Positions 155 through 18,370 of a stretch of 42,911 bases of DNA are shown one piece after another; position 1 is the stretch's first letter; each line of letters begins with the position of its first letter. The notes under the pieces are model-generated. The model was not told the origin of the DNA, ran no database searches, and worked only from the letters and a program-made list of their open reading frames with translations. Origin of the DNA: Zoogloea oleivorans (lineage in GTDB: Bacteria; Pseudomonadota; Gammaproteobacteria; Burkholderiales; Rhodocyclaceae); assembly GCF_008107625.1 (NCBI RefSeq), contig NZ_SDKK01000009.1:1-42911 (forward strand), read 5' to 3'. The position numbers and the translations under genes were made by a program.

Positions 155-2257
155 CTAGAACCCGAACTCCCGCCACATCACACTCGCAACACTGCGCAGG
201 AAGCGCAGCCCCGGCGCCTCCCAGTTGCCGGCAATGGTTACTTTGCCCCGCCAGCTGTGCTGCCTGGAACTTCCCTCCGAGTGGATTTTGAGCGACACCC
301 TGTAAACCGTTCTCTCTGGATGCAAGACTCCATTCTTCTCCCGAACCTGTATGTGCCCTCCAAACAGGGTGGCCAGTTCCGGTTCAGTCAAGGTACGGGA
401 GGCATCCCGGTCGATGCCTGTTACTTCCAGCCGCACTGTGGGGCCCTCTAGACTGTCACTGATGAAGAGGGCTCGATCCCCGACGGCAATACGCTGGATA
501 TCCTCGCCGTCCACATAGGTAACAACCTGCCGGGGGCCTTTGCTGATCAGTCGGCCCAGCACTTCGTGGTTACCCACCCAGTCGCCGACCTGGATATCCG
601 GATTCAGGTCCCTCAGGACACCCTCATAAGGCGCAGTCGGTGCATAGCGGGCCGTATCTGCAGAGATGGTGCTTTCCTCGGCCTGTGCAGTGAGCAACTG
701 TTCATTCAGCACCTGCCAGTCCTTGCGCGTTTCCGGGTCGAATCCGGCAGAGGCGGATTGCAGGGAGAGTCGCTCCCGACGCGCTTCGCTCTGGTCACTG
801 CGGGCCTGCAGATTCGGCGAGCTCATTTCCAGAAGCACGGCACCGGAAGCCACGGCAACACCGTTGGCAACCGGCAGCGTGGCGATCCGGGCGTGCTCAG
901 GGGCGTAGATCACGAATTGATCCCGGGGCTGCAACAGGCCACTGGTGGTGATCCGTGTGGGCCAGGGCACGACGAACAGGGTGAAGAGCAAAGCCCCCAT
1001 CCAGGCGCTGTGGCGGGCACGACGACTCTGTCGAATGGCGGGCCAGCGATCCCGCCAGGCCCTGATTTCGGTCCAGATGGGCAAGAACACAAACCAGACG
1101 ATCTCGACCAGAAACAGCCCAATTCCCACGGCCTTGATGAAGAACTGGTAAACCAGCACCGCAATGCCCAAAAACAGGGTCAGACGATAGAGCCAGGTTG
1201 CCCACGCAAACAAGATGAGCCACCGCTGCTTGCGCTTCGGGAAATGCTCCGGAGCGGGCTCGCCCAGCGCGAAGAGCCTCTCCCGCAAATCCCACCGTGC
1301 GATGGCAAAGGCCCGGGCATGCAGGTTGGGGAGTTGAAAATAATCTGCAACGAGAAAATAGCCGTCAAAACGCATGAAGGGGCTGGCGTTGATGACGATG
1401 GTGGAAACCCAGGTGGTGGTCGATAGCAAGAATGCGATGGACTTGGGCCCGCCGTCCGGAAGCCAGGCCCAGGCCAGAGTGGCCCAGATGGCGATGGTCA
1501 GTTCCGTGACAATCCCGGCGGCTGCCACATGCAGTCGCTGATCGCGGCGAGTCAGCTTCCAGACTTCGTTGGTGTCCGTGTAGGCCACCGGCCACAGTAC
1601 GAGAAAGGCCAGACCCATGGTGGGAACCCGGCAGCCATAGCGTTTTGCCGTGACGCCATGCCCCAACTCATGCAGCGTTTTGACGCCGGCGATCGTCAGG
1701 CCATAGGCCACCACGCCTTCCCAGCTCAGCATATCCACCAGGGTTGCCGAAAACGGCTCCCATTCCCGATAGACACTGACCACACCGGCGACTGCAGCCA
1801 TCAGGGTCAGATGCAGGAAGGTCCGGCTGAAGAAGAAATCCAGGTGTGTGTGCCAGCGGGACAGCCAGCGATCCGGCTTGATCAGCGGTATCCGGAAAAA
1901 CAGATAGTTGTGCAACAGCCAGCGGGTCGTGCTGCCGCGCCGTAGTTTGAGCATCTCGGCCAGTTGTGCCGCACAACCGGGGGCCGTCTGCAGAAGCTGG
2001 TTTGCTTGCAGGAACTGCAGCATCCCGCCGACATCTTCCAGAGTAATGTGGAGGGTCGTTTCCTGGGTAACGGCATCAACGATGCGCAAGGGGTCATCCA
2101 GGCGCCAGTGGCTCAGGATTTCAAAGCTGGGCCAGTCCAACTGATAGAAGAGGTTGCGTACCGGATCATGGAGTGTCCAGGTCGGCTGTCCATCGGGCAG
2201 CCGGGGCCCGGGCAACAACGCAATCTCTTCTCGAAGCGGGGGAAGGTACTGGTTCAT
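155..2257 (-). CDS. PqqD-like / M50 metalloprotease / HlyD-like fusion membrane protein
   Basis: A 700-residue polytopic membrane protein. Residues about 5-92 resemble a PqqD-like (RRE) peptide-binding domain. Residues about 145-430 contain several hydrophobic segments with HELGH (H196, E197, H200), the zinc motif of M50 site-2 proteases, and a downstream FDGY (D298) that fits the third zinc ligand. Residues about 435-700, after a final membrane segment, look like a periplasmic HlyD/biotin-lipoyl-type adaptor. The ATG at 2257 is preferred: it shares its A with the upstream stop (TGATG), whereas an in-frame TTG lies one codon earlier. It is the last gene of the giant-protein operon, in the place where a type I system would have its ABC exporter; no Walker motifs are present. 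The family is known as 'site-2 protease/HlyD' proteins. Binding or cleavage of the giant protein is inference. Confidence 0.85.
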   Translation of the reverse strand: MNQYLPPLREEIALLPGPRLPDGQPTWTLHDPVRNLFYQLDWPSFEILSHWRLDDPLRIVDAVTQETTLHITLEDVGGMLQFLQANQLLQTAPGCAAQLAEMLKLRRGSTTRWLLHNYLFFRIPLIKPDRWLSRWHTHLDFFFSRTFLHLTLMAAVAGVVSVYREWEPFSATLVDMLSWEGVVAYGLTIAGVKTLHELGHGVTAKRYGCRVPTMGLAFLVLWPVAYTDTNEVWKLTRRDQRLHVAAAGIVTELTIAIWATLAWAWLPDGGPKSIAFLLSTTTWVSTIVINASPFMRFDGYFLVADYFQLPNLHARAFAIARWDLRERLFALGEPAPEHFPKRKQRWLILFAWATWLYRLTLFLGIAVLVYQFFIKAVGIGLFLVEIVWFVFLPIWTEIRAWRDRWPAIRQSRRARHSAWMGALLFTLFVVPWPTRITTSGLLQPRDQFVIYAPEHARIATLPVANGVAVASGAVLLEMSSPNLQARSDQSEARRERLSLQSASAGFDPETRKDWQVLNEQLLTAQAEESTISADTARYAPTAPYEGVLRDLNPDIQVGDWVGNHEVLGRLISKGPRQVVTYVDGEDIQRIAVGDRALFISDSLEGPTVRLEVTGIDRDASRTLTEPELATLFGGHIQVREKNGVLHPERTVYRVSLKIHSEGSSRQHSWRGKVTIAGNWEAPGLRFLRSVASVMWREFGF

Positions 2258-3636
2258 CAAATCGCCAGGAATTGCCGAATGCTGGCGAGGGGACGGCGCA
2301 GAACCCAGTAGCCGAGTGGCGCCCAGTCCCCGTGGAACTTGGCGGTGCCCTTCAGACCGATGCGCGGCCCGGCGGCGGTATCCCCCAATCTCGCCCGGGC
2401 CCGATAGGCGTAACTGCCATCGGGACGCGGCACAGCCTCATGGCTGATATAGCGCAGCTGACCGGAGACCGCCGAAAAGGGGCTCGCAGCCAGATACAGA
2501 CTGACAACGGCACCATCGTCCAGCGGAATGGCGTCGCCGATCGAGAGCCAGGCTTCAATCTCGACCTCGTTGGGATGGGCGATCCGCATGACCCGTTCTC
2601 CGGTCTGGACGGGACGACCGATCCATTCGGAAGGATCATCGAAGATAACCACGCCATCCTGGGGGGCCAGGACTTTGGAACGTTCAAACTGGCTGCCGAG
2701 AAATTCAGCCTCAGCCCGCTTCTCACCGATCTTGCCGATCAAGCCGGCCAGCTGCCCCTTCGACTTGGCGTCCGAAACCGCCATCTGGGCAAGCTGCCGG
2801 TATTCGACCTCTGCCGTCTCCAGGGTTTGTCGGGCTACCTGCAGGCGGCTGCCCATAGGCGCCTCATCGAAGCTGAAAAGGATTTGCCCGGCCTTCACCG
2901 TCTCATTCGGCTGCACATGGAACTGCCCTATCACGCCATCCATCGGCGCGCGAATCACCGCGGGATTGGCAGGAACCAGCTCTCCCGGAGCCAGAACCGT
3001 CAGGCGCACCGGAAACATGAGCAGCAGAAGTATTCCCAGGCCGATCCGACTCGAACGGCGCTGCCACCATTTGCCTTGCGAAGAGCGGCCCGCCCCTTTC
3101 TCGCCCATCAGCGAAAAGGACCAGCCCGACGGCTTGACGCGGGCCAGCCAGGCATGGCGCCAGCTATCCAGCCATTCCCCCAGCAAGATCAGGCTGTCAT
3201 CGCCGAAATGGATCTCCCCGGCAAGCAGCAACCCCCCCGGGCAGCTACCCGGGTGCTCGGCGCTGACCGCGATGGGTATCCACAGGGCCTCGGCAGGGAA
3301 CCATTCCGACCATTCGGCCGCCACTTCCGGGCTCAGATCAGCCGGGCCAACCCGACGGGACGACAGGATTTCGCTCCTGGACAGCTCCCGGCAGACCCGG
3401 CTCAGCCATTGCGCATAGGGCGCATTCTCTTCGGGTTGCAGTACGCCTGACAGGGTCCTCACGCCGCCCTGCTCGAACCACAGGACAGACTGCCGGTAGG
3501 GCACCAGCAGGCGCGTGTCGTTGACCAGCAGAAAAGCCAGCTCATCAAGCCCGGCCGCCGCGCGGGCGCGGTGACCGAGATCAATGAGACTGAGGAGTGG
3601 ATTGGCCGATTCAGGTGAGGTATCGATGATGCTCAT
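2257..3636 (-). CDS. Membrane adaptor (HlyD family) with cytoplasmic GAF-like N-terminus
   Basis: A 459-residue protein. Residues about 15-160 look like a GAF-type domain (weak, by pattern only). A basic stretch is followed by one membrane segment at about 197-215. Residues about 216-440 are a HlyD-like adaptor: a lipoyl-type half motif (APMDGVI), a helical hairpin of about 60 residues, a second half motif (APQDGVV) and a beta-barrel. Its ATG overlaps the stop of the giant-protein gene by 4 nt (ATGA), and its stop overlaps the next start, so the three genes are translationally coupled. HlyD proteins bridge an inner-membrane exporter and an outer-membrane channel. With no ABC or RND pump in the operon, the likely partner is the M50 fusion protein (inference). 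The cytoplasmic N-terminus could sense a signal or bind substrate. Confidence 0.82.
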   Translation of the reverse strand: MSIIDTSPESANPLLSLIDLGHRARAAAGLDELAFLLVNDTRLLVPYRQSVLWFEQGGVRTLSGVLQPEENAPYAQWLSRVCRELSRSEILSSRRVGPADLSPEVAAEWSEWFPAEALWIPIAVSAEHPGSCPGGLLLAGEIHFGDDSLILLGEWLDSWRHAWLARVKPSGWSFSLMGEKGAGRSSQGKWWQRRSSRIGLGILLLLMFPVRLTVLAPGELVPANPAVIRAPMDGVIGQFHVQPNETVKAGQILFSFDEAPMGSRLQVARQTLETAEVEYRQLAQMAVSDAKSKGQLAGLIGKIGEKRAEAEFLGSQFERSKVLAPQDGVVIFDDPSEWIGRPVQTGERVMRIAHPNEVEIEAWLSIGDAIPLDDGAVVSLYLAASPFSAVSGQLRYISHEAVPRPDGSYAYRARARLGDTAAGPRIGLKGTAKFHGDWAPLGYWVLRRPLASIRQFLAI

Positions 3637-6600
3637 GCCTGATTGCGTAGAGCCGCCTGGGCGCCACGGGACAAGGCGGCCAGCCGTTCGGATACACCCA
3701 GGGGACGGCTAGCCATGCGCAACTGCTCGCTCAGACCTGCCCGTCCGGCAGGAACCTGGAGAGTCTGGCTTTGGACGTCCCGCTTGCCCACCACGATCCG
3801 GAAGGTGGTGACCGCTTGCCGGCCTTCGCTGTCGCGCGCCGTCACCTTGATGAACAGTTCCCCCTCAAATCCCGGTGGCGCCTGCACGTCGATCTTGCCG
3901 GTGCGCGGATCAAAGGACACCCAACTGGGCAAAGGCTGACCATCCACCTGACTGATACCGACCTGCACGGTGGCATTCGGGTTGGTGTGCGTGAAGGCAT
4001 CGACGGGAATGATGATTTGCACCTGGCGGGCATCTCCCAGAACCTGGTTCGTCATGCCGCGGCCAACCAGAAGGGCATCCGGTGACCCGGGAAGATGGGG
4101 GGCCACAATGACCTGAAAACCACCGGGAATGACCGCCTGGGTCAGCCCTCCGGCCACAGTGGTCGACGATTCCGAGCGGGCGCTGAAGCGTTCCACCACG
4201 GGGACGGGAGTCGTCACGGACGGGATCGGGGTCGGGGCCTGCACGTCTCGGGCTCCACCTGCGGGCAAACCGAGGATCGACGCCGGGGGCAGGAATTCCG
4301 CCACAGGGGCCAGTATCTGCGGCGGATTACTCACGGGTGCCGGGGCGGATTCGGGCGGTACTGATGGTTTGGGCTGCACCTCCGGCTGAACGGGGAGCGG
4401 CACGCCAGTCACCACTGACGTTGCTTCACTCACCCCCCTTTCCGGCGTGCCATAGCCATCGACATACACGGCTACAACCCGCAACGCCTTGCCCACCAAT
4501 GTCGAATCGATTTGCAGTTGTGCACCGGTGGCACCGGGAATTGCAATCCAGCCTTCCTCGGCATCAGAGACTTGCCACTGGTAGGAAACCGGTCCCAGAC
4601 CATCGGCGTCGGCCAGTGTATCGCTGGCCATGAGGGTCGCGCCCTGAGTCGCAATACCGCTGATGATCACGCTGCCAGCGGGAGCATCGTTGACGTTAGC
4701 TACAGCACCGGTGGTGGCGGACGTCACGCTCTCCGGCGTGCCTTGTGCGTCGGTATAGCTGGCCGTGACGGCAATTGTCTTGCCGATCAGAGCAGGGCTC
4801 ACCACCAGGCTGACACCCGTGCCAAGCGTATTGCCGTCACCGTCCTTCCACGTGTAGGTGATAGCGCCCAGGCCATCCGCATCGGTCAGGGTGTCGCTGA
4901 CCGCAAGGGTCTCGCCTTCGGCGGCAGTACCGACGATCGTTACGCTGCCGACAGGGGCCTCGTTGACGTTAGCCACGGCAGCGGTGGCAGCGGACGTCAC
5001 GCTCTCCGGCGTGCCTTGTGCGTCGGTATAGCTGGCCGTGACGGTAATCGTCTTGCCGATCAGTGAAGGGCTCACCGCCAGACTGACGCCCGTGCCAAGC
5101 GTATTGCCGTCACCGTCCTTCCACGTGTAGGTGATAGCGCCCAGGCCATCCGCATCGGTCAGGGTGTCGCTGACCGCAAGGGTCTCGCCTTCGGCGGCAG
5201 TACCGACGATCGTCACGCTACCGACAGGGACATCGTTGCCGGCCGTCACGCGGACGTCGGCCCCATCAGTAGCGGTAGAGAAGGCCGTGGTGCCGCCATT
5301 GATTGTCGTGTCGGCGCTACCACCATTGCTGCCATTGCTCTGGTCCCAGGCACGGAAGCTGATGACATCGGTGAGAAGGCCGCTCACATCGGCATTCGGC
5401 TGAAAATAGATCAGCGCGGTATCGGCCAGCAACAGGGCGCTGCCCGCCGACACGACGGGAGCCGCACGCCAGGTGGCACCGCCGTCGATGGAGTAATGAA
5501 GCGTCCCCTGGGCGCTGACAGCGCTGATCGCAATGCCCACGTGGGCGTCGCCATCGGTCACACCACCGACCAGCGAAGAGACGAGGGTCGCCCCCTGCCC
5601 CACACCGAGGGTCACACCGTTCCCCGGGGCTGCCGCATCTTCCGGCATCGCCGTCAGGCTCAGCAGCGTGTCGGCCAGCACCGGTGCGTTGTTGGCGCGG
5701 GTCAGCACAAGATCGTTACCGGTACTGCCGGCATAGCTGATCGTGACGGGATGCCCGTCAATCGTGGCAGTGAAGCCCTCGGCGAGACCGTTGAAACTGC
5801 CGCTGACAGCATCAAGGCCATCATTGTCGATGAGGATGAAGCTGTCGCCGCTGATCGGCGTATAGCCGCCACCCAGCGTGGCCGCCAGGGTAGAGCCATC
5901 GCCGAGCATGTTGATGTCCACTGCCCCGGTTACGGCAATCTGGTCGTAGTCCGTCCCTGCAGTGGTGCCGTTGATCTCCATGGACAGGCCGCCCTCGGCG
6001 ACGGTGAGGCCGCCACCCAGGGTGATCCTGCCGGGGCCGCTAATGCCAGGAGCCAGGGTGCCACCGGCCTGAACGGTCACTGCCCCGGCCACCGTGCCCG
6101 TGCCGGCCAGCGTGGCGCCCGAGGACACACCAAGACTTGAGGTGGCAGATAACACGCCGGTAACGGACAAGGTTCCGGCCGACACACTCGTGACACCGCT
6201 GTAAGTGCTGTTGCCCGACAGGGTCAGCGTCCCGCTGCCGGCCTTGGTCACCCCACCGGTACCACCAATCACCCCCGAAAACTCGGTGGAGCTACTGTTA
6301 CCGCCGGCCGTCAGCGTATTGGCTCCGAGAGCCAGCGTACCCGCTCCGGCCAGCGAGCCGATGGCCTCGGCCTGCGACAACGTGAGCGTTGCGCCGGCAG
6401 CGACCGTGACGGCGGTCGTGTCGGCCACAGCCCCGCCACTCCGATTCAGCGTCAGCCCGCCCGCCGAGACGATGGTGGCACCGGTATAGGTATTGTTCCC
6501 GGTGAGGGTCAGCGTACCGCTACCGGCTTTGGTCAGACCACTGTTGGCGCCGGAGATGACACCCGAGAAGATGGTCGAGGTGTTGTCAACCCCGGTCGTC

Positions 6601-9600
6601 AGCCGATAGTTTCCCAACGCAACGCTGCCGGCACCGCTCAGTGAGCCGATGGTTTCGCCCCCTCCGCCCAGGGTCAGGGTGGTTCCGCTGGATACCGTCA
6701 CCGCGCTTGTGTCGCCGATGCTGGCGCCGCCGATCACGCTCAGATTGCCGGCCGACAGGTTGATGGCGCCGGAATGGGTGTTGGTCCCGGACAGCGTCAG
6801 TGTCCCGTCCCCCGCCTTGCTCAGCGCCCCCGTCCCCGACAACACGCCCGACAAGGTGACGGCGCTGCCGTTGAAGATCGTGGCGTCGTCGGCGATCGCG
6901 ATGGCGTTGGAAACCGTCACGCCGCTGCCGGTGATCGTCAACATACTGCCGCCTGCCAGCGTCGCCGTACCGGTTCCCAGGTTGCTGCCGCTGCTGATCG
7001 ATACACCGTTGGCGCCACGGATGTCCGTGCCACCAGAATAGGTGTTGGCCCCCGACAGGGTCAGGTTGCCACCATTGATCTTGGTCAGCGCCCCGACGCC
7101 GGAAATCACACCGGACAGCGTCAGGGTCTGGCTGACGTTATTGACGTTGATCGTGCCGCCGCCAACGCCCAGCACGATGGCGTTGTCCATGGTGAAAGTG
7201 CTCCCGCCATTCTCCAAAGCACCGCTGTCCAGCGTGATGGCGCCGCCGACCATTCGCGAATCGGAACTTGCCTTCACCGTCCCACCCGTGACCGTCAAAG
7301 TCGCAGCTGCGCCGGAGTTGTTCGTATTGTCCAGCGTCAGGTTGCCGGCACCGGCCTTGGTCAGCGCAGACGAACCGGAAATCTGTCCCGCCAGGGTGAC
7401 TGCGCTGGCGTTGGTGATGCGGGAGTCGGCCGACAGCGCAATAGCGTTGTCGATGGTGACGCCGCTGCCGGTGATCGTCAGGTCGCCGCCATTCAGCGTC
7501 ACGGCCCCGCTGCCGAGATTGCCGTCGGCGGCGATACTCAATGTGCCGGCGGTCACCGAGGTGTTTCCCGTGTAGGTGTTGGCACCCGACAGGGTCAGCG
7601 TACCCAGCCCGCTCTTGCTCAGGCTGCCGGCTCCGGCAAGCTCGCTGCCGATGGTTGCCGTGTTGCCGCTGCCGTTAGTGACATTCAGATCACCACCCAC
7701 GATGAGGGTGCTGCCGGCAATGCTTAATCCATTGGCCCCACCAAGGTTCAGGATATCGCCGCTGCCCACTGTGGCAGTGCTGCCCAGCGTAATGGTGGCG
7801 TTGTCACTCAGCACCACACTGACGGTGTCGGCGCCCCCCTGCGCAGCGCCGCGCACCAGGGCTTCCCGCAGCGAGAAGCCGTCAGCCGCATCGTTGCCGC
7901 TGTCGTCGTTGCTCTGATCGACGACGATCGTCGAACTGGTAACGGTGACGTCGGCATGAGTGGTGCTGCTCCCGTCGCTCAGGGCAAAGCGGATCGTCGC
8001 ATCGCCATAGGGCGTGTCGTTGCGATACAGGATGCCCTGCATCACCGACTGCACCAGTGCCTGGGTGGCGTCGGCACCTCCGTTGGCAAAGCTGATGGTC
8101 AGGGTGCCACCCGTGTTCGTGAAGGTGGCAAAAGTCTGCCCGCCCGCTTGCAGGTTCGCGCCACTGACCGTGAAACCGGATGCACTGAAGCTGAACAGAT
8201 CGTTGGCGGACGCATCCGCGCTGCCATCGGTAACGCGACTCACCGTCAAGGTCGCGCCGTTCCAGTTGGTCGCGTCGTTTTCCGTGTCAGTGACGGAAAG
8301 GGCCGTACCGCCATCCAGCGCCACCGTGTTGCCAACCCCCGCCCAGGCGACACTGTCGCCGGACAGAGCGGTGATGACCGGCGGCGCATTGGCGCCCGCC
8401 ACGGTAATGCCGTTGCCGGTCAGGTCGGCGACGGTCACCGCCGCATCGGCCCCGGTGGCCCAGTCCTCTGCAGCCTCCAGGTTGTAGGTGACGCTGCCGG
8501 TCGAGCTGGTGCCGTTGTTGGTCAGCCGGGTAGCGACAGCCGCCCTGTCTGTCACGCCCAGCGTTACCGTGAAGCTGGTGGAGCTGGTGATCTCGACATT
8601 GGAGGTGTCGCCGGTCAGCGTGTAAGCCGTGCTGTCGCCGCTGAGTGTGAGCTTGGTGACGTCGATATCGTTGGGGCTACCGGACTTGATCACGAAGTCC
8701 GTGCCGGTCACCACCAGCACGCCGGTGACTGCGTTGTAGGTGGCGGACGTAATGGTCGGAACCGCCACGTTGCTGGCAGTGATACCGTTACCGCTTGCAT
8801 CGACGTCGGTGACACCCGCAGCGGCACCTGCAGCCCAATCCTCCGCAGCGGCCAGGTTGTAGGTCGTCGCACCGGTCGAGCTGGTCCCGTTTTTGTTGAT
8901 GATCTGGTTGATCGCCGCCCTGTCGGTGGCACTCAAGGTCAGGCTGAAGGCCGTGCCGGAAGTGATTTCCACATTGGCGGTATCCGTCAGCGTGTAGGTC
9001 GATCCGCCTTCGCCGGTGAAGGTGAGTTTATTGGCGACGATGTCGTTGGTGGCACCGCTCAGCTTCAGAAAGCCGGTGCCGGTCACGGCCAGTACGCCGG
9101 TGCTGGCGTTGTAGGTCGATGAGGTGATCGCCGGAACTGCCACATTGCTGGTGGTGATGCCATTGCCGGTGGCATCGGCAATACTGGTGTTGCCGATAAC
9201 GGTGTTCCAGTCATCGGCGACGGCGAGGTTATACGTCGTGCCGCCCGTCGTGGAGGTGCCGTTCTTGTTCAGCATCTGGTTGATCGCCGCCTTGTCGGTA
9301 GCGCTCAACGTCAGGGTAAAACCGGTGCCGGAACTAATCTCGACATTCGCGGTGTTGGTCAGCGTATGAGTTGCACCGCCTTCGCCGGTCAGCGTGAATT
9401 TATTGGCGGTAATATCGTTGGCCGCCCCGCTGGCCGCCACCAGATTGGTGCCGGTCACCACCAGAGACCCCGTGCTGGCATCGTAGGTGGAAGATGTAAT
9501 GGTCGGTGTCTGTACATTGCTGACGGTAACGCCATTGCCCGTCAGGTCGGCGCTCCCGGCGGTGGCCGGATTCCAGTCGGCAGCCGCCGCAATATTGAAA

Positions 9601-11198
9601 GTCGTGCCGCCAACCGACGAGGTACCGTTCTTGTTCAGCAAACCTTCCACATTGACCTGGTCAGTGGCATTCAGCGCCACGGTAAAGGACGTCGCCGAAG
9701 TGATCTCAACATTCGACGAGGTCAGGGCATAGGTTGCGCCTCCCTGTCCGGTAAGCGTCAGCTTGCTGACATTGATATCGTTGGTTGCACCTGTCGTGGC
9801 AAGCAAGCCCGTGCCGGTAAGCACGAGAGAGTTGGTGCTGGCGTCGTAAGTGGCGGAGGTAATCGCAGGGGGCTGCGGGGGCGGGGTAAAAACAATGTCA
9901 TCCGCCACGAAGGTAACGGAACCGCCACCAAGGGCAGTTACCTTGATTGATGTGACCATTCCCCAGTCATTCGTGCCAGACAAGTTGACCGAATAAATGG
10001 GCAGGCCACTTCCGTTGTTAAGGTTACTGTAAGTGGGATTGACGTCATAGGTATAGGTTGTGGCACCGTTGAAGCCTTGTATGCTGAAGCTGCTGACCGG
10101 TCCCGTATTTGCCGAAAAACCCACCAGAAAACTCGAAACATCCACCGCCTGATTGAACGTGAATTGAAGGTAGGCATTTCCATTGGTGGAGGAATAGAGG
10201 ACGGTGTCACTGCCTGTATTCCATGTGCCCAGCGACGTATCACTGGTTGTGGCAGAAACCGTTACGCCGCTCACTGTTTGGCTGACGGTGCCAGTGCCGG
10301 AGCCAACGCCGCTTTCAAAGTCGAACACCGCGAGGGTGTACTGGTAGCCTTCAATCGCTTCCGTTGTAACAGGCAGGACGGTCTCTATGCTTCCGGTCTG
10401 TCCTTCAAGAACCCAGTCACCACCGTAAATACGGGCACCGGTGGTGTCAGTGGAGGCCGCTATATCAGCCTCAGTCGTCTGTGCCAATGCCGCGATGAAG
10501 GCCGCACCGTCCGATCCTTCTGCCACATCGCAGCCGTACAACAAAATATCTGCATTCACATCGAGCGTGCGGCCAATAGCCGCCAGTTCGCTGCTGTGGT
10601 CATCCAGATTTTGCGCCGTTAAATTAAGCGTCCCCAAGTGCAGCGAAGCCTCGGAACCATGAGAGAAGATGTGAATGGCATCAATGCCGCTGCGCCCATT
10701 GAGTATTTGTACCATCTGGTCCAGACCGTCCCGGGTCGAGTCGAGGACATGAACTTCCGCCCCCGGCTTCAGCCCTGCCAGCAAGGTCTGGTAGTCAACG
10801 ACGTTACTTTCGATGAACACGATTTCAGTGCGCACGCTACCGGCTGGCGGTGTGGCCAGAGCGAGGGGCTGCAGGTTGACGGCATCTGCGTGGGGACTGG
10901 CGTCACCCGATTCAAGTACATGAGATACATCGGCCACCGCAGTCACGGCCGCCCCGTCAAACATGAAGCGCTGCTCCAGCGCCAGGGGCCGAATGCCGTG
11001 CAGCGCGAGCTTGCGCCGGCTCGGCAGGGGGCTGGCCGCGCGTTCTCCACTCACCATGAGACTCCCCGCCAGCAGGGTCGCCTCGCTGCCTTCGGCGCTA
11101 CGGCTGGAAGCAGACTTACCCTTGCTGCGCACACACTCGGCAACAGCCACAAAGGTGCGGGTAACTTCATTCCAGACAGTGCGGTACAAACGATTCAT
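3633..11198 (-). CDS. Giant repetitive surface protein with ESPR-like start, LEPR-XLL-type motif and DUF4347
   Basis: A 2521-residue protein, very rich in Thr, Ser, Gly and Ala, and probably a secreted adhesin. Residues 1-28 resemble the ESPR of type V secreted proteins (MNRLYRTVWNE, then a VAVAE pattern). Residues 74-84 read LEQRFMFDGAA, a LEPR-XLL-type motif. Residues about 122-290 are DUF4347, with SHG (H180) and YGCD (C223). Then come an unassigned beta domain (to about 440), four repeats of 121-125 residues (about 443-940), a cadherin-like section, autotransporter-associated beta-strand repeats rich in TLTLSG (about 1165-1735), another cadherin-like section (about 1740-1985), Ig-like repeats of 91 residues (about 1988-2260), a Pro-rich linker and a C-terminal putative-Ig domain. 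No strong Sec signal core, RTX nonapeptides, LPXTG or autotransporter barrel is seen. The start has a GGGAG ribosome binding site about 8 nt upstream. Confidence 0.88.
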   Translation of the reverse strand: MNRLYRTVWNEVTRTFVAVAECVRSKGKSASSRSAEGSEATLLAGSLMVSGERAASPLPSRRKLALHGIRPLALEQRFMFDGAAVTAVADVSHVLESGDASPHADAVNLQPLALATPPAGSVRTEIVFIESNVVDYQTLLAGLKPGAEVHVLDSTRDGLDQMVQILNGRSGIDAIHIFSHGSEASLHLGTLNLTAQNLDDHSSELAAIGRTLDVNADILLYGCDVAEGSDGAAFIAALAQTTEADIAASTDTTGARIYGGDWVLEGQTGSIETVLPVTTEAIEGYQYTLAVFDFESGVGSGTGTVSQTVSGVTVSATTSDTSLGTWNTGSDTVLYSSTNGNAYLQFTFNQAVDVSSFLVGFSANTGPVSSFSIQGFNGATTYTYDVNPTYSNLNNGSGLPIYSVNLSGTNDWGMVTSIKVTALGGGSVTFVADDIVFTPPPQPPAITSATYDASTNSLVLTGTGLLATTGATNDINVSKLTLTGQGGATYALTSSNVEITSATSFTVALNATDQVNVEGLLNKNGTSSVGGTTFNIAAAADWNPATAGSADLTGNGVTVSNVQTPTITSSTYDASTGSLVVTGTNLVAASGAANDITANKFTLTGEGGATHTLTNTANVEISSGTGFTLTLSATDKAAINQMLNKNGTSTTGGTTYNLAVADDWNTVIGNTSIADATGNGITTSNVAVPAITSSTYNASTGVLAVTGTGFLKLSGATNDIVANKLTFTGEGGSTYTLTDTANVEITSGTAFSLTLSATDRAAINQIINKNGTSSTGATTYNLAAAEDWAAGAAAGVTDVDASGNGITASNVAVPTITSATYNAVTGVLVVTGTDFVIKSGSPNDIDVTKLTLSGDSTAYTLTGDTSNVEITSSTSFTVTLGVTDRAAVATRLTNNGTSSTGSVTYNLEAAEDWATGADAAVTVADLTGNGITVAGANAPPVITALSGDSVAWAGVGNTVALDGGTALSVTDTENDATNWNGATLTVSRVTDGSADASANDLFSFSASGFTVSGANLQAGGQTFATFTNTGGTLTISFANGGADATQALVQSVMQGILYRNDTPYGDATIRFALSDGSSTTHADVTVTSSTIVVDQSNDDSGNDAADGFSLREALVRGAAQGGADTVSVVLSDNATITLGSTATVGSGDILNLGGANGLSIAGSTLIVGGDLNVTNGSGNTATIGSELAGAGSLSKSGLGTLTLSGANTYTGNTSVTAGTLSIAADGNLGSGAVTLNGGDLTITGSGVTIDNAIALSADSRITNASAVTLAGQISGSSALTKAGAGNLTLDNTNNSGAAATLTVTGGTVKASSDSRMVGGAITLDSGALENGGSTFTMDNAIVLGVGGGTINVNNVSQTLTLSGVISGVGALTKINGGNLTLSGANTYSGGTDIRGANGVSISSGSNLGTGTATLAGGSMLTITGSGVTVSNAIAIADDATIFNGSAVTLSGVLSGTGALSKAGDGTLTLSGTNTHSGAINLSAGNLSVIGGASIGDTSAVTVSSGTTLTLGGGGETIGSLSGAGSVALGNYRLTTGVDNTSTIFSGVISGANSGLTKAGSGTLTLTGNNTYTGATIVSAGGLTLNRSGGAVADTTAVTVAAGATLTLSQAEAIGSLAGAGTLALGANTLTAGGNSSSTEFSGVIGGTGGVTKAGSGTLTLSGNSTYSGVTSVSAGTLSVTGVLSATSSLGVSSGATLAGTGTVAGAVTVQAGGTLAPGISGPGRITLGGGLTVAEGGLSMEINGTTAGTDYDQIAVTGAVDINMLGDGSTLAATLGGGYTPISGDSFILIDNDGLDAVSGSFNGLAEGFTATIDGHPVTISYAGSTGNDLVLTRANNAPVLADTLLSLTAMPEDAAAPGNGVTLGVGQGATLVSSLVGGVTDGDAHVGIAISAVSAQGTLHYSIDGGATWRAAPVVSAGSALLLADTALIYFQPNADVSGLLTDVISFRAWDQSNGSNGGSADTTINGGTTAFSTATDGADVRVTAGNDVPVGSVTIVGTAAEGETLAVSDTLTDADGLGAITYTWKDGDGNTLGTGVSLAVSPSLIGKTITVTASYTDAQGTPESVTSAATAAVANVNEAPVGSVTIVGTAAEGETLAVSDTLTDADGLGAITYTWKDGDGNTLGTGVSLVVSPALIGKTIAVTASYTDAQGTPESVTSATTGAVANVNDAPAGSVIISGIATQGATLMASDTLADADGLGPVSYQWQVSDAEEGWIAIPGATGAQLQIDSTLVGKALRVVAVYVDGYGTPERGVSEATSVVTGVPLPVQPEVQPKPSVPPESAPAPVSNPPQILAPVAEFLPPASILGLPAGGARDVQAPTPIPSVTTPVPVVERFSARSESSTTVAGGLTQAVIPGGFQVIVAPHLPGSPDALLVGRGMTNQVLGDARQVQIIIPVDAFTHTNPNATVQVGISQVDGQPLPSWVSFDPRTGKIDVQAPPGFEGELFIKVTARDSEGRQAVTTFRIVVGKRDVQSQTLQVPAGRAGLSEQLRMASRPLGVSERLAALSRGAQAALRNQA
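4689..5234 (-). repeat. Two near-identical 273-bp tandem copies inside the giant gene
   Basis: Copies at 4689-4961 and 4962-5234 differ at about 16 positions by eye and share an uninterrupted identical run of 125 bp (4816-4940 against 5089-5213). Each encodes one 91-residue Ig-like module (DADGLGAITYTWKDGDGNTL core). A third, much more diverged module lies on the low-coordinate side (about 4416-4688). The pattern points to recent duplication or gene conversion and to likely length variation in this part of the protein. Confidence 0.9.
8375..9870 (-). repeat. Four diverged tandem repeats of 363-375 bp in the giant gene
   Basis: The same motif (encoding ITSxTYxAxTG, with the DNA signature GCGTYGTAGGT on the plus strand) recurs near 8731, 9106, 9478 and 9841, giving periods of 375, 372 and 363 bp. 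Each unit encodes 121-125 residues ending in a D-x-TGNGIT-type motif, with a conserved NKNGTS segment inside. The copies are clearly diverged at DNA level, so this expansion is older than the 273-bp pair. Confidence 0.85.
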
Positions 11199-11223
11199 GG
11201 TGACGCTCCCAGCGGGGGATGAA

Positions 11224-12015
11224 TTACTGGCCAGCCGACGGTGCCATCAGCACCTTGCCGCTCATGCCTGCAATGAGTTCAGTAAATTTGCCGTCGATCA
11301 CGGCGTTGAGCTTGATGGACTGGCTGACCGGATCCACCCGTGCGCCGATCCGCTGCACTTTGGCCGGATAGGTCTTGCCCGTCTCGTCGATACGGACTTG
11401 CAGGGCTGAGCCGGTCTTGATCCAGGCCAGCCACTTGGAGGGCACGATGAATTCCAGCTCGAGCACCGAATCGTCGATGATTTCGAGCACGGCCTGGCCG
11501 GGTTGCACGTATTGCTGCTCGCGCACCTTTTGCTCGGCAATACGCCCGGCGTAGGGCGCCGCCACATTGCACTTGCCCAGCACCGCACTATTGGCGGCAA
11601 CCTCGGCCCGCGCCTTCATGACTTCGGCTTCCGAGATTTCCAGCTCCACCTTGCCGACCGAGTTGAGCTCGGCCAGCCGCTTGTTGGCTTGCCAGGTCTT
11701 GTCGGCTGCGCCCAGGGCTGCCCGGGCCTTGTTGATCTGGGCTTGCTGCAAGGAGCAGTCGAACTGGATCAGGCTTTGCCCCTGCTTGAAGGCGCTGCCT
11801 TCCGAAACCGGCAGCCGGCTGACCTTGGCGCCGATTTCGGCGGCCAGGGTGGTGTAACGCCGGGGCGACAACTGGGCGCGGATCTCCCGCTTGTCGAGGG
11901 CGCTGGCAGTTGGCGGAGCCAAAGGCGCCGCCGCGGTGCCTGGAGCGGCGACGGCCAGGGACGACGCCAGGACAGCGAGCACAACCATCAGGCCCTGAAA
12001 GGTTTGCGGTGTCAT
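11224..12015 (-). CDS. Periplasmic adaptor (membrane fusion) protein, secreted type
   Basis: A 263-residue RND/HlyD-type periplasmic adaptor. A cleavable signal peptide is visible at residues 1-24 (hydrophobic core LMVVLAVLASSLAVA). Next come a lipoyl-like half (GAKVSRLPVSEGSAFKQG), a short alpha-helical hairpin (about 85-140), the second lipoyl half (APYAGRIAEQKV) and a beta-barrel (to about 255). It begins 5 nt after the stop of the outer-membrane lipoprotein gene and ends 25 nt before the giant gene, so all are co-transcribed. It has no membrane anchor, unlike the second adaptor of the operon, so the machine would contain two different adaptors, or three counting the HlyD-like tail of the M50 protein. 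Its channel partner is presumably the adjacent outer-membrane factor. Confidence 0.85.
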   Translation of the reverse strand: MTPQTFQGLMVVLAVLASSLAVAAPGTAAAPLAPPTASALDKREIRAQLSPRRYTTLAAEIGAKVSRLPVSEGSAFKQGQSLIQFDCSLQQAQINKARAALGAADKTWQANKRLAELNSVGKVELEISEAEVMKARAEVAANSAVLGKCNVAAPYAGRIAEQKVREQQYVQPGQAVLEIIDDSVLELEFIVPSKWLAWIKTGSALQVRIDETGKTYPAKVQRIGARVDPVSQSIKLNAVIDGKFTELIAGMSGKVLMAPSAGQ

Positions 12016-12020
12016 GCCGC

Positions 12021-13583
12021 TTATTCCTTGGCCGAGGCCGTATCGGCTTCAGGCAAGGGCGGAAGCTTGCCCGCCTCCCAGCTCTGCAGCGATTGGGCGA
12101 CGGCGGCGCTGAGATCCTTGAGGGGCATGCGGTCACTGCCTTCGATCAGGGGTTCCAGCCCGAGGGTAGCCTGCAGCCGTGAGGCCGCTGCCTGGGCGTT
12201 GGAGAGCGCCTGGTAGCGACGCAGCACGGAAAGGATGGAGGCAGTCTGCTGGGAGACCCGCTCCAGCTTGGTCTGCTTCTCGGCCTTTTCCTGATTGACG
12301 ATGTGCTCGGCGATGCGGGTGTCCACATCGGCAATGGCGTCGGCCCGTTCGAATTGACGGCTCGCATTGGCGTACTGCAGGCGCGCAATGTGCAGCTGCG
12401 TGAGCACCGCCATCTGGGTAGAAATGCGCTTCTGATCGGCCAGGGCAACACCCGCATCGGCGAGGCGCATTTGCGCCGGAGCAGCGAGGAGCCCCAGCAG
12501 GTTGAAGGAAATCTGGGCGCCGGCCTCATTCCACGACTGGTTGATCAGGAAGGAGTCGTTGCTGTTCTTGAGCGCGTAGTTGAAGGAAATCCCCGGAAAC
12601 AGCCGCAGCAGGGCCCGACGGGTTTCCTGCTGGGCGATGCGCGCGTTGTACATGCTCTCCCGCAAGTCGGGATTGAGCATGAGGGCGTGCGCCTCCATGT
12701 TCTCGACCGGCACATTCAGCCAGGCTGACTGGACGGCACTGACCGGCTCGACAATCTTGAAAGGTTGGGACAGGGGCAAATTGGTGAGAGAAGCCAGTTC
12801 AACGCGAGCGGTGGACAACTCCTGCTCGATGACCTCCAGGAGCCGGATGTTCTCCAGCAACTGACGCTGATAGCGCAGGGGCTCGAGGGGTGGGCGGATT
12901 TGTTCGGCTTCGGCCTGGCGGGAGTTCTTCAGAGCCCCTTCGGCATCCTGGAGCGTGCTGCGCAAGCTGCCTCCCAGCTTTTCGGCGGCAACCACGCGCC
13001 AGTAGGCGGTGCGCACATCCTGGATCAGGTTGTGCAGGGCCTTGCGCCGCCGCTCGGTGGCCACCAGCACCCGATCGGCATTTTGCTTGGCGGCATAGTA
13101 ACTCTGGCCAAAATCGAGCAGGCTCCAGGAAAAGCCCAGATCTGTCGTCAGCGCCTCGCGACTGGAAGAAATGTATGGGTTGGCCAGCGAGGGCTGACCG
13201 GTGACCGAATCCTGACTACGGCTGATCAGATCATTGTTGCGGTAACGATAACCGGCCGAGGCAACCAGTTTCGGCAACATGTCGAAGTTGCCGGCTTCAA
13301 AGGTGCCATGGGCCACGGCCTCTTCCATGGCCTTGAGACGACGATCGGCGTTGTACTTGATGGCCCGGGCGATGGCCTCTTCGAGGCTGAGCGCACTGCC
13401 CAGGGGTTCGACATTGTGGTTCAGGACAGCCTTGTCAGCCTGGGTGCTGGCAAGAATATCCGCCGGCTTGAGCGCCTCGGGCTGCAGCGAGGCACACCCC
13501 GTCAGGCCCAGTGCAACGGCCAAGGCAAGGAGTTTCCTGGCCGGAAAATAGACGGGAGAGTGAGTTCTGGATTGATTTTTCAT
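12021..13583 (-). CDS. Outer-membrane factor lipoprotein (TolC/NodT type)
   Basis: A 520-residue outer-membrane efflux protein. The N-terminus has a basic stretch, a hydrophobic core and a lipobox (LTGC, Cys at about 29), so it should be lipid-anchored in the outer membrane. Two OEP-type halves rich in long helices follow (about 65-270 and 290-490), with the usual Asn-Ala-Asp and Leu-Asp-Phe-Gly motifs near the first beta-strands. It is the first gene of the minus-strand operon that includes the giant protein, and would provide the outer-membrane channel. No convincing ribosome binding site precedes the ATG, and no other in-frame start lies before the signal peptide. Confidence 0.87.
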   Translation of the reverse strand: MKNQSRTHSPVYFPARKLLALAVALGLTGCASLQPEALKPADILASTQADKAVLNHNVEPLGSALSLEEAIARAIKYNADRRLKAMEEAVAHGTFEAGNFDMLPKLVASAGYRYRNNDLISRSQDSVTGQPSLANPYISSSREALTTDLGFSWSLLDFGQSYYAAKQNADRVLVATERRRKALHNLIQDVRTAYWRVVAAEKLGGSLRSTLQDAEGALKNSRQAEAEQIRPPLEPLRYQRQLLENIRLLEVIEQELSTARVELASLTNLPLSQPFKIVEPVSAVQSAWLNVPVENMEAHALMLNPDLRESMYNARIAQQETRRALLRLFPGISFNYALKNSNDSFLINQSWNEAGAQISFNLLGLLAAPAQMRLADAGVALADQKRISTQMAVLTQLHIARLQYANASRQFERADAIADVDTRIAEHIVNQEKAEKQTKLERVSQQTASILSVLRRYQALSNAQAAASRLQATLGLEPLIEGSDRMPLKDLSAAVAQSLQSWEAGKLPPLPEADTASAKE

Positions 13584-13862
13584 GTTGGCAGAGGGCTGGG
13601 CGTTGAGCGCGTCAGCATCAAAAGTCTTGAATCCCCAGTCTTTGCCGATCCGGGGGGCTATGCAGTCATGGCCTGGAACACATCACCGGCCTCGCCAGGA
13701 CAAAAAGGTGCTTCCATCGACTTGCGGGCGTTTCCCACGCAAGCGGCAAGGCATGTTTTTGATAAAAATCGCATTTTCCCGAAAATTGCTATCGACTCGA
13801 ATTGACTGTTCTTGAGTTTTTTTGAGGTAACGTCTGATCATCTGCATACAAGGAAAAATCCG
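13584..13862. promoter_or_regulatory. Divergent intergenic region between the secretion operon and creA
   Basis: A 279-bp stretch without a gene. Its right half is AT-rich and must contain promoters for both directions, but no textbook -10/-35 pair stands out. TTGATAAAAATCGC at 13759-13772 matches 8 of the 10 fixed positions of the FNR/DNR box (TTGAT-N4-ATCAA). A candidate plus-strand -35 (TTGACT) lies near 13802. An AAGGA ribosome binding site at about 13850 serves creA. Confidence 0.4.
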
Positions 13863-14333
13863 ATGAAAACCAGATCCGCCCTTTTGCAGCTCGCCGCCCT
13901 GGCGGCCAGCCTGCCCGGCCTCACCCATGCCGACACTGTCGGCTGCGTCACCACTGCGTGGAAACTGGTCGGCGCCAATCACAAGGTCTGCGTCGAAGCC
14001 TTCCACGACGCGAAGGTGCCCGGCGTCACCTGCCACGTCAGCCAGGCCCGCACCGGTGGCGTATCGGGGAGCCTCGGGCTGGCGCAGGATCCGTCCCAGT
14101 TCTCCCTGGCCTGCCGGCAAACCGGGCCGATCACCCTGCCGGCCAAGCTGCCGGAAAGCGACACGGTATTCAGCGAAGACACCTCGGTGCTGTTCAAGGA
14201 AACCCGCGTCGTGCGCCTGTGGGACAAGGCCAACAACACGCTGGTTTATGTGGCGATCAGCCGCAAGCTCATCGACGGCGCGCCGGCCAACAGCATATCC
14301 ACCGTACCGGTGATGCCGTGGGGCAGCAGATAA
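13863..14333 (+). CDS. creA: CreA family periplasmic protein
   Basis: A 156-residue protein with a Sec signal peptide (residues 1-23, cleavage after THA) and the CreA fold pattern: two Cys near the start of the mature protein, KVCVEAFHD, GVTCHVSQA (third Cys), FSLACRQTG (fourth Cys) and a C-terminal VYVAISRKLIDG. The four Cys suggest disulfides in the periplasm. The function of CreA is not established; the name comes from the E. coli cre locus. The ATG at 13863 is chosen over an in-frame start at 13812 because of the signal peptide and an AAGGA ribosome binding site. It precedes nirJ by about 90 nt in the same direction and may be co-transcribed. Confidence 0.85.
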   Translation: MKTRSALLQLAALAASLPGLTHADTVGCVTTAWKLVGANHKVCVEAFHDAKVPGVTCHVSQARTGGVSGSLGLAQDPSQFSLACRQTGPITLPAKLPESDTVFSEDTSVLFKETRVVRLWDKANNTLVYVAISRKLIDGAPANSISTVPVMPWGSR

Positions 14334-14424
14334 GGCAGGCCATGCCAGTCAGGTTGATACCCGTCAAGGCCGCATGAGGCACGCGGCAGCGACAATCGTC
14401 CCAAACCCTTCTGAAGGTCAGGCC

Positions 14425-15618
14425 ATGTTCCGCATCTCCAGCTACATCCGTGAAATCGCCGCCCCCACGCCTCTTGGCCCGCGCCGCCATCCGCCCGGGC
14501 CGGTGGTGATCTGGAACCTGATCCGGCGCTGCAACCTGACCTGCAAGCACTGCTATTCGATCTCCGCCGACAAGGACTTTGCCGGCGAGCTGGGTACCGA
14601 CGAAGTTTTCACGGTGATGGACGACCTGAAGGGCTTCCGCGTGCCGGTGCTGATCCTTTCCGGCGGCGAGCCGCTTCTGCGCCCCGACATCTTCGAGATT
14701 GCCAGCCGCGCCAAGAAAATGGGCTTCTACGTCGGCCTGTCGTCCAATGGCACGCTGATCGACAAGTCGAACATCGACGCCATCGCCGCTGCCGACTTCG
14801 ATTACGTCGGCGTCAGCATTGACGGCATTCGTGACACCCACGACAAGTTTCGCCGCCTCGACGGCGCCTTCGACCGCTCCCTGGCCGGCCTGCGCCTGTG
14901 CCGCGAACTCGGCGTAAAAGTGGGCGTGCGCTACACCATGACCCAGGACAACGCCGCCGACCTGCCCGGCGTGCTGCAACTGGTCGAAGACGAAGGCATC
15001 GACCGCTTCTATTTTTCGCACCTCAACTATGCCGGCCGCGGCAACAAGAACCGCGCCGACGACGCCCACCACATCCTCACCCGCGACGCGATGGAACTGC
15101 TTTTCGAAACCGCCTGGGATTGCGAGCAGCGCGGGCTCGACAAGGATTTCACCACCGGCAACAACGACGCCGACGGCCCCTTCTTCCTGCAATGGGTGCA
15201 GCGCCGATTCCCCAACCGGGCGGCCCACATCGAAGCCAAGCTGCGCCAGTGGGGTGGCAACTCCAGCGGCGTCAACGTCGCCAACATCGACAACCTGGGC
15301 AACGTGCACCCGGACACCATGTGGTGGCATCACACCCTCGGCAACGTGCGCGAACGGGCCTTCTCGGAGATCTGGACGGATCTGTCCGACCCGCTCATGG
15401 CCGGCCTCAAGCAATCGCCGCGCCCCGTGAAAGGCCGCTGCGCCGAATGCCGCCACCTGGCCATGTGCAACGGCAACACCCGCGTGCGCGCCCAGCAGCT
15501 CACCAACGACCCCTGGCAGGAAGACCCGGGTTGCTACCTGACCAACGCCGAAATCGGCGTGGCCGACGGCGACCGGCTGGAAGTGAAACCGTGGGTGCGC
15601 CTTGCCCCGGCGGCCTGA
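14425..15618 (+). CDS. nirJ: Heme d1 biosynthesis radical SAM protein NirJ
   Basis: A 397-residue radical SAM enzyme. The N-terminal cluster motif CNLTCKHC (C36, C40, C43) binds the SAM-cleaving [4Fe-4S] cluster, and GGEP follows at the expected place. The C-terminal region has C339, C342, C348 and C370, a SPASM-like pattern for a second cluster. NirJ removes the two propionate side chains of 12,18-didecarboxysiroheme in the heme d1 pathway, making the cofactor of cytochrome cd1 nitrite reductase. The ATG at 14425 has a GAAGG ribosome binding site 7 nt upstream; an upstream in-frame start gives an unsupported extension. nirN follows downstream after a hairpin element. Length and motifs fit the family well. 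Confidence 0.92.
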   Translation: MFRISSYIREIAAPTPLGPRRHPPGPVVIWNLIRRCNLTCKHCYSISADKDFAGELGTDEVFTVMDDLKGFRVPVLILSGGEPLLRPDIFEIASRAKKMGFYVGLSSNGTLIDKSNIDAIAAADFDYVGVSIDGIRDTHDKFRRLDGAFDRSLAGLRLCRELGVKVGVRYTMTQDNAADLPGVLQLVEDEGIDRFYFSHLNYAGRGNKNRADDAHHILTRDAMELLFETAWDCEQRGLDKDFTTGNNDADGPFFLQWVQRRFPNRAAHIEAKLRQWGGNSSGVNVANIDNLGNVHPDTMWWHHTLGNVRERAFSEIWTDLSDPLMAGLKQSPRPVKGRCAECRHLAMCNGNTRVRAQQLTNDPWQEDPGCYLTNAEIGVADGDRLEVKPWVRLAPAA

Positions 15619-15625
15619 CGCATTG

Positions 15626-15697
15626 CTGTGGGTCGGGCTTCAGCCCGACTCTTCCCCTTGATCGGCGCAGGCTGTCGGACAGAAGTCCGACCCACAG
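15626..15697. repeat. Inverted pair of REP-like palindromes (GTGGGTCGG family)
   Basis: The units CTGTGGGTCGGGCTTCAGCC... (15626-15649) and its inverted relative (15674-15697) flank a 24-bp spacer between nirJ and nirN. Each unit can form its own short hairpin and the two can pair with each other, like a BIME of two REP units. The same core occurs singly at 25748-25775 and 39358-39385. Confidence 0.8.
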
Positions 15698-15710
15698 GAC
15701 GATTCAAACC

Positions 15711-17273: not shown

Positions 17274-17286
17274 ACGAAATCCGGGT

Positions 17287-17841
17287 TCAGCAGCCCAGGC
17301 TGAAACGCTTGTCGGAGGCACTCAGGCGGCGTGCCTTTTGCATTTCGATGTAGGCCGGCCCCTGAGGCTGGCGCAGGTGGGCGTCGATCTGGTCGATCAA
17401 GTACATCAAGGCCCGGCATTCGGCATCCTTGTCCGATTCGGCGTCGGAACGGGGCGTCGCCGAGCGGGGAGCCGCCTCCGATGAAACCGGCGACCGGCTG
17501 GCAACCAGACGGCGATACTGTTCGGCGTAACTGGCCGTGGGCGTACCGGGCGGCGGCGTGCGCAGATCGATGATCTCCTGGCGCTCACCGGCAGCACAGG
17601 GCAGATCCGAAAAAGTCTGGCTACCTCCGCCCGTGCAACGGTAAGCCTGATCGGGGCCGGCAAAAACAGGCTGACGAACTGCCGACGCTGGCACCGGAAG
17701 CCGAGGCGGCGCCACTCCCGGCTCGGGAGCGGCCGGAGGCGGAAGGTCATTACCCGCGGTTGGTGTCCGATACTGCTCCGACCAATAGGCGATTGCCCCC
17801 GTCAGCAAAAGGGCCGCCAGGAGCACGGAGCCTTCCTTCAT
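17287..17841 (-). CDS. Membrane-anchored DUF4124-like protein
   Basis: A 184-residue protein of unknown function. One N-terminal membrane segment (residues 4-20) is followed by a Pro-rich linker (30-62), then YRCTGGGSQTFSDLPCA (67-83), which resembles DUF4124 with a Cys pair. After a Ser/Arg-rich stretch, the C-terminal part (from about 140) has Cys-Arg-Ala-Leu and ends in SLGC. Its start (MKEGS, then LLL and AIAYWS) and its C-terminal part match the next gene at 17869-18207, so the two are paralogs. Its stop lies 13 nt from the end of nirN (convergent). Confidence 0.7.
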   Translation of the reverse strand: MKEGSVLLAALLLTGAIAYWSEQYRTPTAGNDLPPPAAPEPGVAPPRLPVPASAVRQPVFAGPDQAYRCTGGGSQTFSDLPCAAGERQEIIDLRTPPPGTPTASYAEQYRRLVASRSPVSSEAAPRSATPRSDAESDKDAECRALMYLIDQIDAHLRQPQGPAYIEMQKARRLSASDKRFSLGC

Positions 17842-17868
17842 GCGCGGACGCCCCTGCTCTGCCGGGAC

Positions 17869-18207: not shown

Positions 18208-18294
18208 GGTTTGATCTCGGTTGGCATGGGGCGGAATTTATCATCCGGCTCCCCGGAATGGGTGCGATCCCCGACACGATGGCGGCAAGATGGC

Positions 18295-18308: not shown

Positions 18309-18370
18309 GGTTCAGGCCGCCGGGTCGGGCCACTCTGTCGTGCCCAACCCATTCTGCAGCGAGCCCCGAA

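Follow-up and report, generated by a model that had tools for sequence, protein, structure and literature searches.

Results

A five-gene operon with an M50 protease in the place of the ABC exporter

The window, as we call the whole stretch of DNA analysed here (42,911 nucleotides from Zoogloea oleivorans, base 1 onward of contig NZ_SDKK01000009.1, C40 in our numbering), opens with an operon for a giant protein and its putative export apparatus. An earlier note, made from the sequence alone, had described five coupled genes here, and all five open reading frames (ORFs) are indeed present on the minus strand, with successive genes spaced by +5, +25, -4 and -4 nt. The first (12021..13583) encodes a TolC-family outer-membrane factor of 520 residues (P0001; Pfam OEP, 8.6e-31), a lipoprotein judging by eye from the LTGC lipobox at its N-terminus. 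The second (11224..12015) encodes an RND-type periplasmic adaptor of 263 residues (P0002) with a Sec-type N-terminus by eye, which matches NCBIfam TIGR01730 (116.4 bits, cut-off 94.9) and Pfam HlyD_3 (1.3e-21) and HlyD_D23. The presumed cargo, a giant repeat protein of 2521 residues, is encoded by the third gene (3633..11198); it matches Pfam ESPR (3e-13), DUF4347 (2.9e-57) and PATR (2e-30), and residues 74-84 (10947..10979, minus strand) form the motif LEQRFMFDGAA, which is typical of giants linked to such cassettes. The fourth gene (2257..3636) encodes a 459-residue protein (P0004) with a GAF-type cytoplasmic domain, one transmembrane segment (hydrophobic stretch at residues 200-216) and an HlyD adaptor part (HlyD_3, 1.4e-17). 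The product of the last gene (155..2260; start codon TTG at 2260, ATG as codon two) is a 701-residue protein (P0005) that combines a PqqD-like (RRE-type) domain, a polytopic M50 protease (Peptidase_M50, 1.3e-8) and an HlyD adaptor (HlyD_3, 1.5e-10).

The M50-HlyD family consists of two clades, A, to which the window belongs, and B, which is SecA-linked, and two of the domains named in the earlier note were recognised only with the help of these relatives or of modelling. At E<=0.1, P0004 has no GAF match, although six of the 39 clade A sequences in the P0004-type alignment do; three of four clade B relatives also match GAF, the exception being the protein encoded on contig C69 of the window genome. 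Likewise, PqqD is not matched by P0005 at E<=0.01 and is absent among the families listed at E<=0.1 for 41 clade A M50-HlyD members; the clade B paralogue on C69 matches it at 7e-8, and residues 14-86 of the P0005 model show three strands and three helices, as in a PqqD-like region. The models (pLDDT 87.1 and pTM 0.67 for P0005, 90.9 and 0.62 for P0004) agree with adaptor parts in both membrane proteins: in Foldseek, their HlyD parts match MacA, AcrA, MexA and other adaptors; no M50 or GAF structure is among the 50 matches listed for each protein. In the M50 region, H197, E198, H201, N291 and D299 are invariant and P294 is nearly invariant among 41 aligned sequences. P0005 thus has the HExxH and distal N/P/D motifs of an M50 or site-2 protease in a polytopic protein with hydrophobic helices, and a daptide protease model matches the same region at 2e-43, below the cut-off of that model.

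Recurrence of the cassette and search for a linked motor

Searches for clade A loci matched at least 594 contig stretches, 578 of which encode relatives, and the best 80 loci were kept, all of them containing the M50 gene by construction. The GAF-HlyD gene is visible in 78 of the 80, the TolC gene in 38 and the adaptor gene in 41, many loci being cut on that side. Because the window opens at a contig end, leaving just 154 nt downstream of the M50 gene, the absence of genes there was judged from the relatives, among which 69 of the 80 loci show more than 2 kb beyond this gene.

With two ABC proteins as queries, no ABC gene of exporter size was found in the 80 clade A loci; the matches in seven of them are ORFs of 230-375 residues, too short to be exporters. 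The same queries gave no match in 40 clade B loci. No RND gene occurs in the operon, nor do the nine ORFs annotated from 13812 to 27204 of the window include one, the 1036-residue ORF at 20766 being a PAS-GGDEF-EAL protein. The earlier statement that neither an ABC nor an RND gene is linked is therefore borne out for the operon and these neighbours, and the ABC exporter linked to relatives that would have told against the proposal was seen in neither sample of loci. These observations support the view that the cassette is a genuine, repeatedly occurring unit to which no ABC exporter is linked.

Flanking ORFs of 60-1000 residues from 84 clade A loci were also clustered, and no conserved motor candidate emerged among the 25 largest groups. 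Members of a kinase-like group are found in 12 loci, though not in a fixed position, and one of them is a sensor kinase by Pfam; an ABC ATP-binding group occurs in six, and further groups resemble antisense or repeat ORFs. A SecA-like gene is absent from the 80 clade A loci, and each of the 25 other clade A genomes tested has one strong SecA match; weak second matches (<=31.2 bits) resemble other helicases and were rejected as a second SecA. When 26 clade A genomes were compared with the type I secretion system (T1SS) models TIGR03375, TIGR01842 and TIGR01846, seven (G082, G023, G213, G298, G016, G064 and G088) had no ABC exporter above the cut-offs, although all 26 contain ABC proteins matching these models below cut-off.

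M50-HlyD proteins are widespread. Among 398 Pseudomonadota genomes, 93 have one by the clade B model (E<=1e-10), and 89 have a match to the clade A model with a threshold of E<=1e-60. M50-HlyD and DUF4347 proteins occur together much more often than by chance: 74 genomes have both proteins, 19 only the M50 protein, 18 only DUF4347 (92 genomes with DUF4347 in all) and 287 neither (Fisher p ~1e-44, uncorrected for kinship). The family is also found on 75 plasmid records, 18 of them from Escherichia and 8 from Citrobacter, and a near-identical M50 gene is present in 24 of 5426 complete E. coli genomes. The E. coli IncF plasmid pABWA45_1 (L021, L255) has a complete clade A cassette with a giant gene of 13.4 kb, and the megaplasmid of Cupriavidus metallidurans CH34 also bears a clade A locus.

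Clade B and its SecA-like ATPase

In a tree of 72 M50-HlyD proteins, the 29 clade A sequences are split off by a branch with an SH-aLRT support of 100 (quick method), and clade B members with a degenerate SecA-like gene or with none group within clade B, L166 forming a long branch. Clade B was sampled as 40 of the 45 best matches, omitting the C69 match of the window genome, two of G085, one of G069 and one of G185, and by BLAST a SecA-like gene lies beside the M50 gene in 37 of these 40 loci. These short SecA-like genes are separated by score from housekeeping SecA (>=647 versus <=572 bits). At least 43 were found, with at most three candidates scored per genome, and 42 of the 43 lie within ~1 kb of an M50 gene (39 by coordinates and three by inspection, one of the latter beside an M50 fragment at a contig end), the remaining one running into a contig end.

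In the SecA-like protein, the two ATPase domains with their motifs are retained, as is the preprotein-binding domain. The chain stops at the start of the helical scaffold or soon after. Nothing in it corresponds to the helical wing of SecA or to the C-tail, and the two-helix finger is missing wholly or for the most part.

In several clade B loci (L153, L155-L157, L160, L161 and L182), a large protein that begins with a Sec-type N-terminus is encoded ~2 kb away from the closest gene of the cassette. The one in L182 is a two-partner secretion (TPS) exoprotein, and a gene for a ShlB-type partner lies between its gene and the cassette.

A leader motif on the giant proteins

The giants of clade A begin with a short, often basic stretch followed by LExRx(M/L)(F/L)D(G/A). 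This leader is present in 45 of the 52 candidate giants examined: in 27 of 31 encoded within 500 nt of a cassette gene, in one of four farther away (L076 has it; L060 and the second giants of L031 and L076 do not), in the one E. coli giant (LESRQLFDG), and in 6 of 6 and 10 of 10 giants chosen by a shared contig. The set of 10 was drawn from 29 loci, the remaining loci sharing no contig with a listed M50 match, and three leaders were recovered only by the looser of two patterns. As for the four misses within 500 nt, L033 and L096 are opposite-strand neighbours, and L049 and L109 start in repeats less than 260 nt from a contig end. In the Alisedimentitalea record, the leader lies in frame just upstream of the annotated start.

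Clade B has its own version, LExRx(L/M)(L/F/Y)(S/A)(A/G), on 16 giants near cassettes, and one position is diagnostic, being D in the 45 clade A leaders and S or A in the 16 clade B leaders. The other 13 of 29 large ORFs near clade B loci have no leader (L145, L149, L153, L155-L158, L160, L161, two in L177, L182 and the second ORF on C69); several of these have Sec-type N-termini by eye, and the one checked is the TPS protein of L182. In 8 of the 18 genomes with DUF4347 and no M50 protein, 11 DUF4347 proteins have a visible start, and a single one of them has the leader; this sole exception comes from a 57%-complete metagenome-assembled genome whose genus includes several other members with M50.

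The best 13-residue hydropathy before the motif ranges from 0.24 to 1.73 in 31 cassette-linked giants, most of which have no clear hydrophobic core there, and from 1.48 to 3.35 in 11 control proteins, large ones with Sec-like N-termini; the two ranges overlap. The earlier note had also associated the giant with LEPR-XLL. The window giant has no match to the LEPR-XLL model NF012209 at E<=0.01, although it has the related motif LEQRFMFDGAA, and residues 1-773 of the clade A giant from E. coli have none at E<=1; NF012209 is matched by clade B giants, two of three at or above cut-off.

At the other end, 48 of 55 clade A giants (those of L030-L109 and L021-L024) have a loose motif, approximately (R/K/P)xx(L/F/V)xx(Q/K)(L/I/V/F/M), among their 75 C-terminal residues, compared with a mean of 5.6 and a maximum of 13 in 500 shuffles of the tails; the pattern was picked after the sequences had been viewed. 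It is possible that it represents a second signal. Some DUF4347 frames are far longer than that of the window: an open frame of 14,920 codons (G006:C1:2731072) shares its contig with a clade B cassette, and two other genomes have frames of 11,649 and 10,907 codons.

Other cassettes and giants of the same genome

The window genome encodes four M50-HlyD proteins and five DUF4347 giants; a fifth M50-HlyD match corresponds to the gene beside the one on C69. Contig C58 holds two cassettes, one with the gene order of the window and one with all five genes and the giant in front. The divergent cassette on C69 encodes an HlyD protein, a PqqD-M50-HlyD protein, a SecA-like protein of 668 residues, an adaptor and a giant. 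This giant (G000:C69:1-9609) is apparently split into ORFs of 1988 and 1226 residues that adjoin near base 3650 but are read in different frames, which seems to be a frameshift or an assembly error. The fifth DUF4347 giant, on C36, lies next to two ABC exporters scoring above the cut-off of the PrtD model, and no M50 match lies nearby. The leader is present in all four M50-linked giants and is missing from this ABC-linked one. ABC_membrane genes occur at 10 places in the genome; within the reach of the contigs, none is close to any of the four M50 cassettes, the nearest being ~30 kb away. The leader motif and the SecA link seen on C69 had no place in the earlier account.

Other features of the window

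The plus-strand neighbours of the operon at 13812-25737 resemble a denitrification cluster (CreA, a radical SAM protein, a cytochrome d1 domain and NnrS), with the PAS-GGDEF-EAL protein and an APH-type kinase as the last genes of this stretch. ARAGORN reports a tRNA-Gly at 9137-9224 (plus) inside the giant gene on the opposite strand, probably a false positive.

Discussion

Our results identify an N-terminal leader motif on the giant proteins that is class-specific between clades A and B. From the gene content and linkage, we hold with moderate confidence that the operon encodes a type-I-like, ABC-free and leader-dependent exporter of giant surface proteins, in which the RRE-M50-HlyD protein would read and cut the leader. 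By what is known of their families, the outer-membrane lipoprotein and the periplasmic adaptor would form a duct, the inner-membrane end of which would be made by the GAF-HlyD and RRE/M50/HlyD proteins. The cargo would be recognised via the leader LExRx(M/L)FD(G/A), which looks unlike an ordinary Sec signal; the PqqD-like domain may bind it and the M50 active site may cut it, as the existence of leader-removing M50 relatives suggests. The M50 protein may also, we infer, serve as the inner-membrane conduit. In clade B, the linkage points to the dedicated SecA-like ATPase as the probable motor, which was also proposed previously (PMC4452313). No dedicated motor appears to be encoded in clade A, and our guess, the least costly one, is that housekeeping SecA drives export there, since the 25 other clade A genomes tested have one strong SecA match each and seven of 26 have no ABC exporter by the T1SS models. 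The earlier suggestion that the route is fed by Sec accordingly finds partial support, in the SecA-like gene beside the M50 gene of the sister clade, and finds none in clade A, which has no dedicated SecA.

A number of points weigh against such an exporter. No motor gene is linked in clade A, and we know of no M50 fold that conducts polypeptides. What the sequences themselves show is the set of parts and how they are linked, the division into two clades, the leader motif and the conserved active site; secretion of the giant, cleavage of its leader and formation of a complex are predictions from the genes. The leader motif was defined after the sequences had been viewed, and some unlinked DUF4347 proteins in M50-positive genomes do not have it (e.g., L186, L188, L226 and L227). 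In clade B, L163 and L166 have no SecA, and the SecA-like ORF beside the M50 gene of L178 (G010, 11042-12994) is degenerate (SecA_DEAD E 0.005; by eye, the P-loop is lost) and may be a pseudo-ATPase that has been retained for a different function; SecA may therefore not be essential. As for the window giant itself, its N-terminus (11055-11198, minus strand) is an ESPR, a signal extension of type V proteins, and the hydropathy of its leader region (1.51) lies inside the range of the Sec-like controls, which together hint at ordinary Sec export. No strong hydrophobic core follows the ESPR. As a common export signal, the ESPR is disfavoured because the other giants of the genome begin without it, by eye. 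Finally, among the M50 proteases that remove leaders of small peptides, deletion of EpeP did not fully abolish its product, according to PMC10885120.

The hint of Sec export raises the alternative that the M50 cassette is concerned with processing only, the giant crossing the inner membrane via ordinary SecYEG, the cassette trimming or anchoring it, and the duct carrying it onward. M50 proteases typically cleave membrane proteins, and both the N-terminus of the window giant and the absence of a linked motor in clade A would fit such a role. Nevertheless, inspection by eye revealed no ESPR in the other giants of the genome, most of the 31 giants linked to cassettes have no clear hydrophobic core (albeit with ranges that overlap the controls), and clade B possesses a SecA-like protein of its own, so that we regard processing alone as possible but unlikely. 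At the opposite extreme, the M50-HlyD protein may be the gate itself, with the RRE reading an FDGA/LLSA code, M50 cutting, and the chain entering the HlyD/TolC duct without SecYEG; clade B would then be pushed by a cut-down SecA that has shed its SecY-working regions, and clade A would be driven otherwise. This we consider doubtful.

An unlinked type I ABC exporter could instead drive the duct. In the window genome, ABC exporters exceed the cut-offs of all three T1SS models, and one of its DUF4347 giants adjoins two of them. However, that ABC-linked giant has no leader, and the seven clade A genomes with nothing above the three cut-offs make a hidden ABC motor quite improbable, even though below-cut-off matches occur in all 26. 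Type V secretion, with the giant as an autotransporter or two-partner passenger, was already disfavoured and is very improbable: the ESPR and the passenger-associated PATR repeats of the window giant speak for it, whereas in the giant Pfam finds neither an autotransporter barrel nor a TPS domain, no TpsB is among the five operon proteins, and the leader is common to giants without an ESPR.

If the leader-dependent exporter is real, a secretion route is held by a large fraction of Pseudomonadota (the 93 of 398 genomes above) and by a few E. coli plasmids; to our knowledge, such a route is missing from textbooks. It would mean that the type I secretion duct is separable from its ABC motor, that an intramembrane-type protease is tied to protein export, and that a short leader motif can be used to predict cargo. 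A likely job would also be found for the LEPR-XLL domain of giant proteins, and the SecA/M50 prediction made in 2015 would become directly testable in laboratory strains.

The closest known system is the module of that prediction. Kamneva, Poudel and Ward described SecA_DEAD, M50, HlyD and GAF proteins as a module, and suggested SecA as the ATPase and M50 as the pore (2015, PMC4452313). With its M50-HlyD and GAF-HlyD proteins, an extra HlyD adaptor, sometimes an OEP, and no ABC, it resembles clade B and the C69 locus, so that a distinct ABC-free route is not new for the SecA-linked form. The operon META1p2402-2399 of Methylobacterium extorquens AM1, reported in PMC4452313, is of clade B. The window operon likewise encodes M50-HlyD and GAF-HlyD proteins together, GAF itself being recognised via relatives only. 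It differs in having no SecA-like gene, the secondary SecA_DEAD protein of this genome being the one on C69, and in belonging to the separate clade A clan; it is the SecA-less form. The main text of PMC4452313 contains none of the words leader, giant, LEPR and DUF4347, and its abstract and sections 16, 17 and 18 name neither cargo nor leader and describe no SecA-less form, although the supplementary tree of M50 homologues, which marks only the homologues found in the loci, may include clade A. Our full-text literature searches found no description of the SecA-less form, and only Kamneva et al. for the module, as far as the texts were accessible; a Methylococcus secretome paper (PMC4257694) proved, in its accessible part, not relevant to the module, and in the accessible part of a 2021 Chem Rev article (PMC8277102) SecA appears only with SecYEG/SecDF.

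Type I secretion systems (LapBCE, PrtDEF, HlyBD-TolC) share with the window a TolC-family factor, an HlyD-family adaptor and a giant repeat cargo in one operon. Unlike them, the window operon has an N-terminal leader on the cargo and an M50 protein in place of the ABC protein, and an ABC motor was found neither in the 80 clade A loci nor, as far as the contigs reach, with the M50 cassettes of the window genome. Type I cargo has an uncleaved secretion signal at the C-terminus; in the clade A giants, this end has the loose motif described above. PCAT exporters, which are fusions of a C39 peptidase with an ABC protein, couple recognition and removal of a leader to export. In the window system, a zinc protease of the intramembrane type takes the place of their cysteine protease, and there is no ABC motor. 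The M50 region of P0005 is homologous to the leader-removing M50 proteases of ribosomally synthesized and post-translationally modified peptides (EpeP/YydH and the daptide protease), of which EpeP is thought to perform both cleavage and export, according to PMC10885120. Unlike these proteases, that of the window system is fused to a PqqD-like domain and an HlyD adaptor, and its putative cargo is thousands of residues long.

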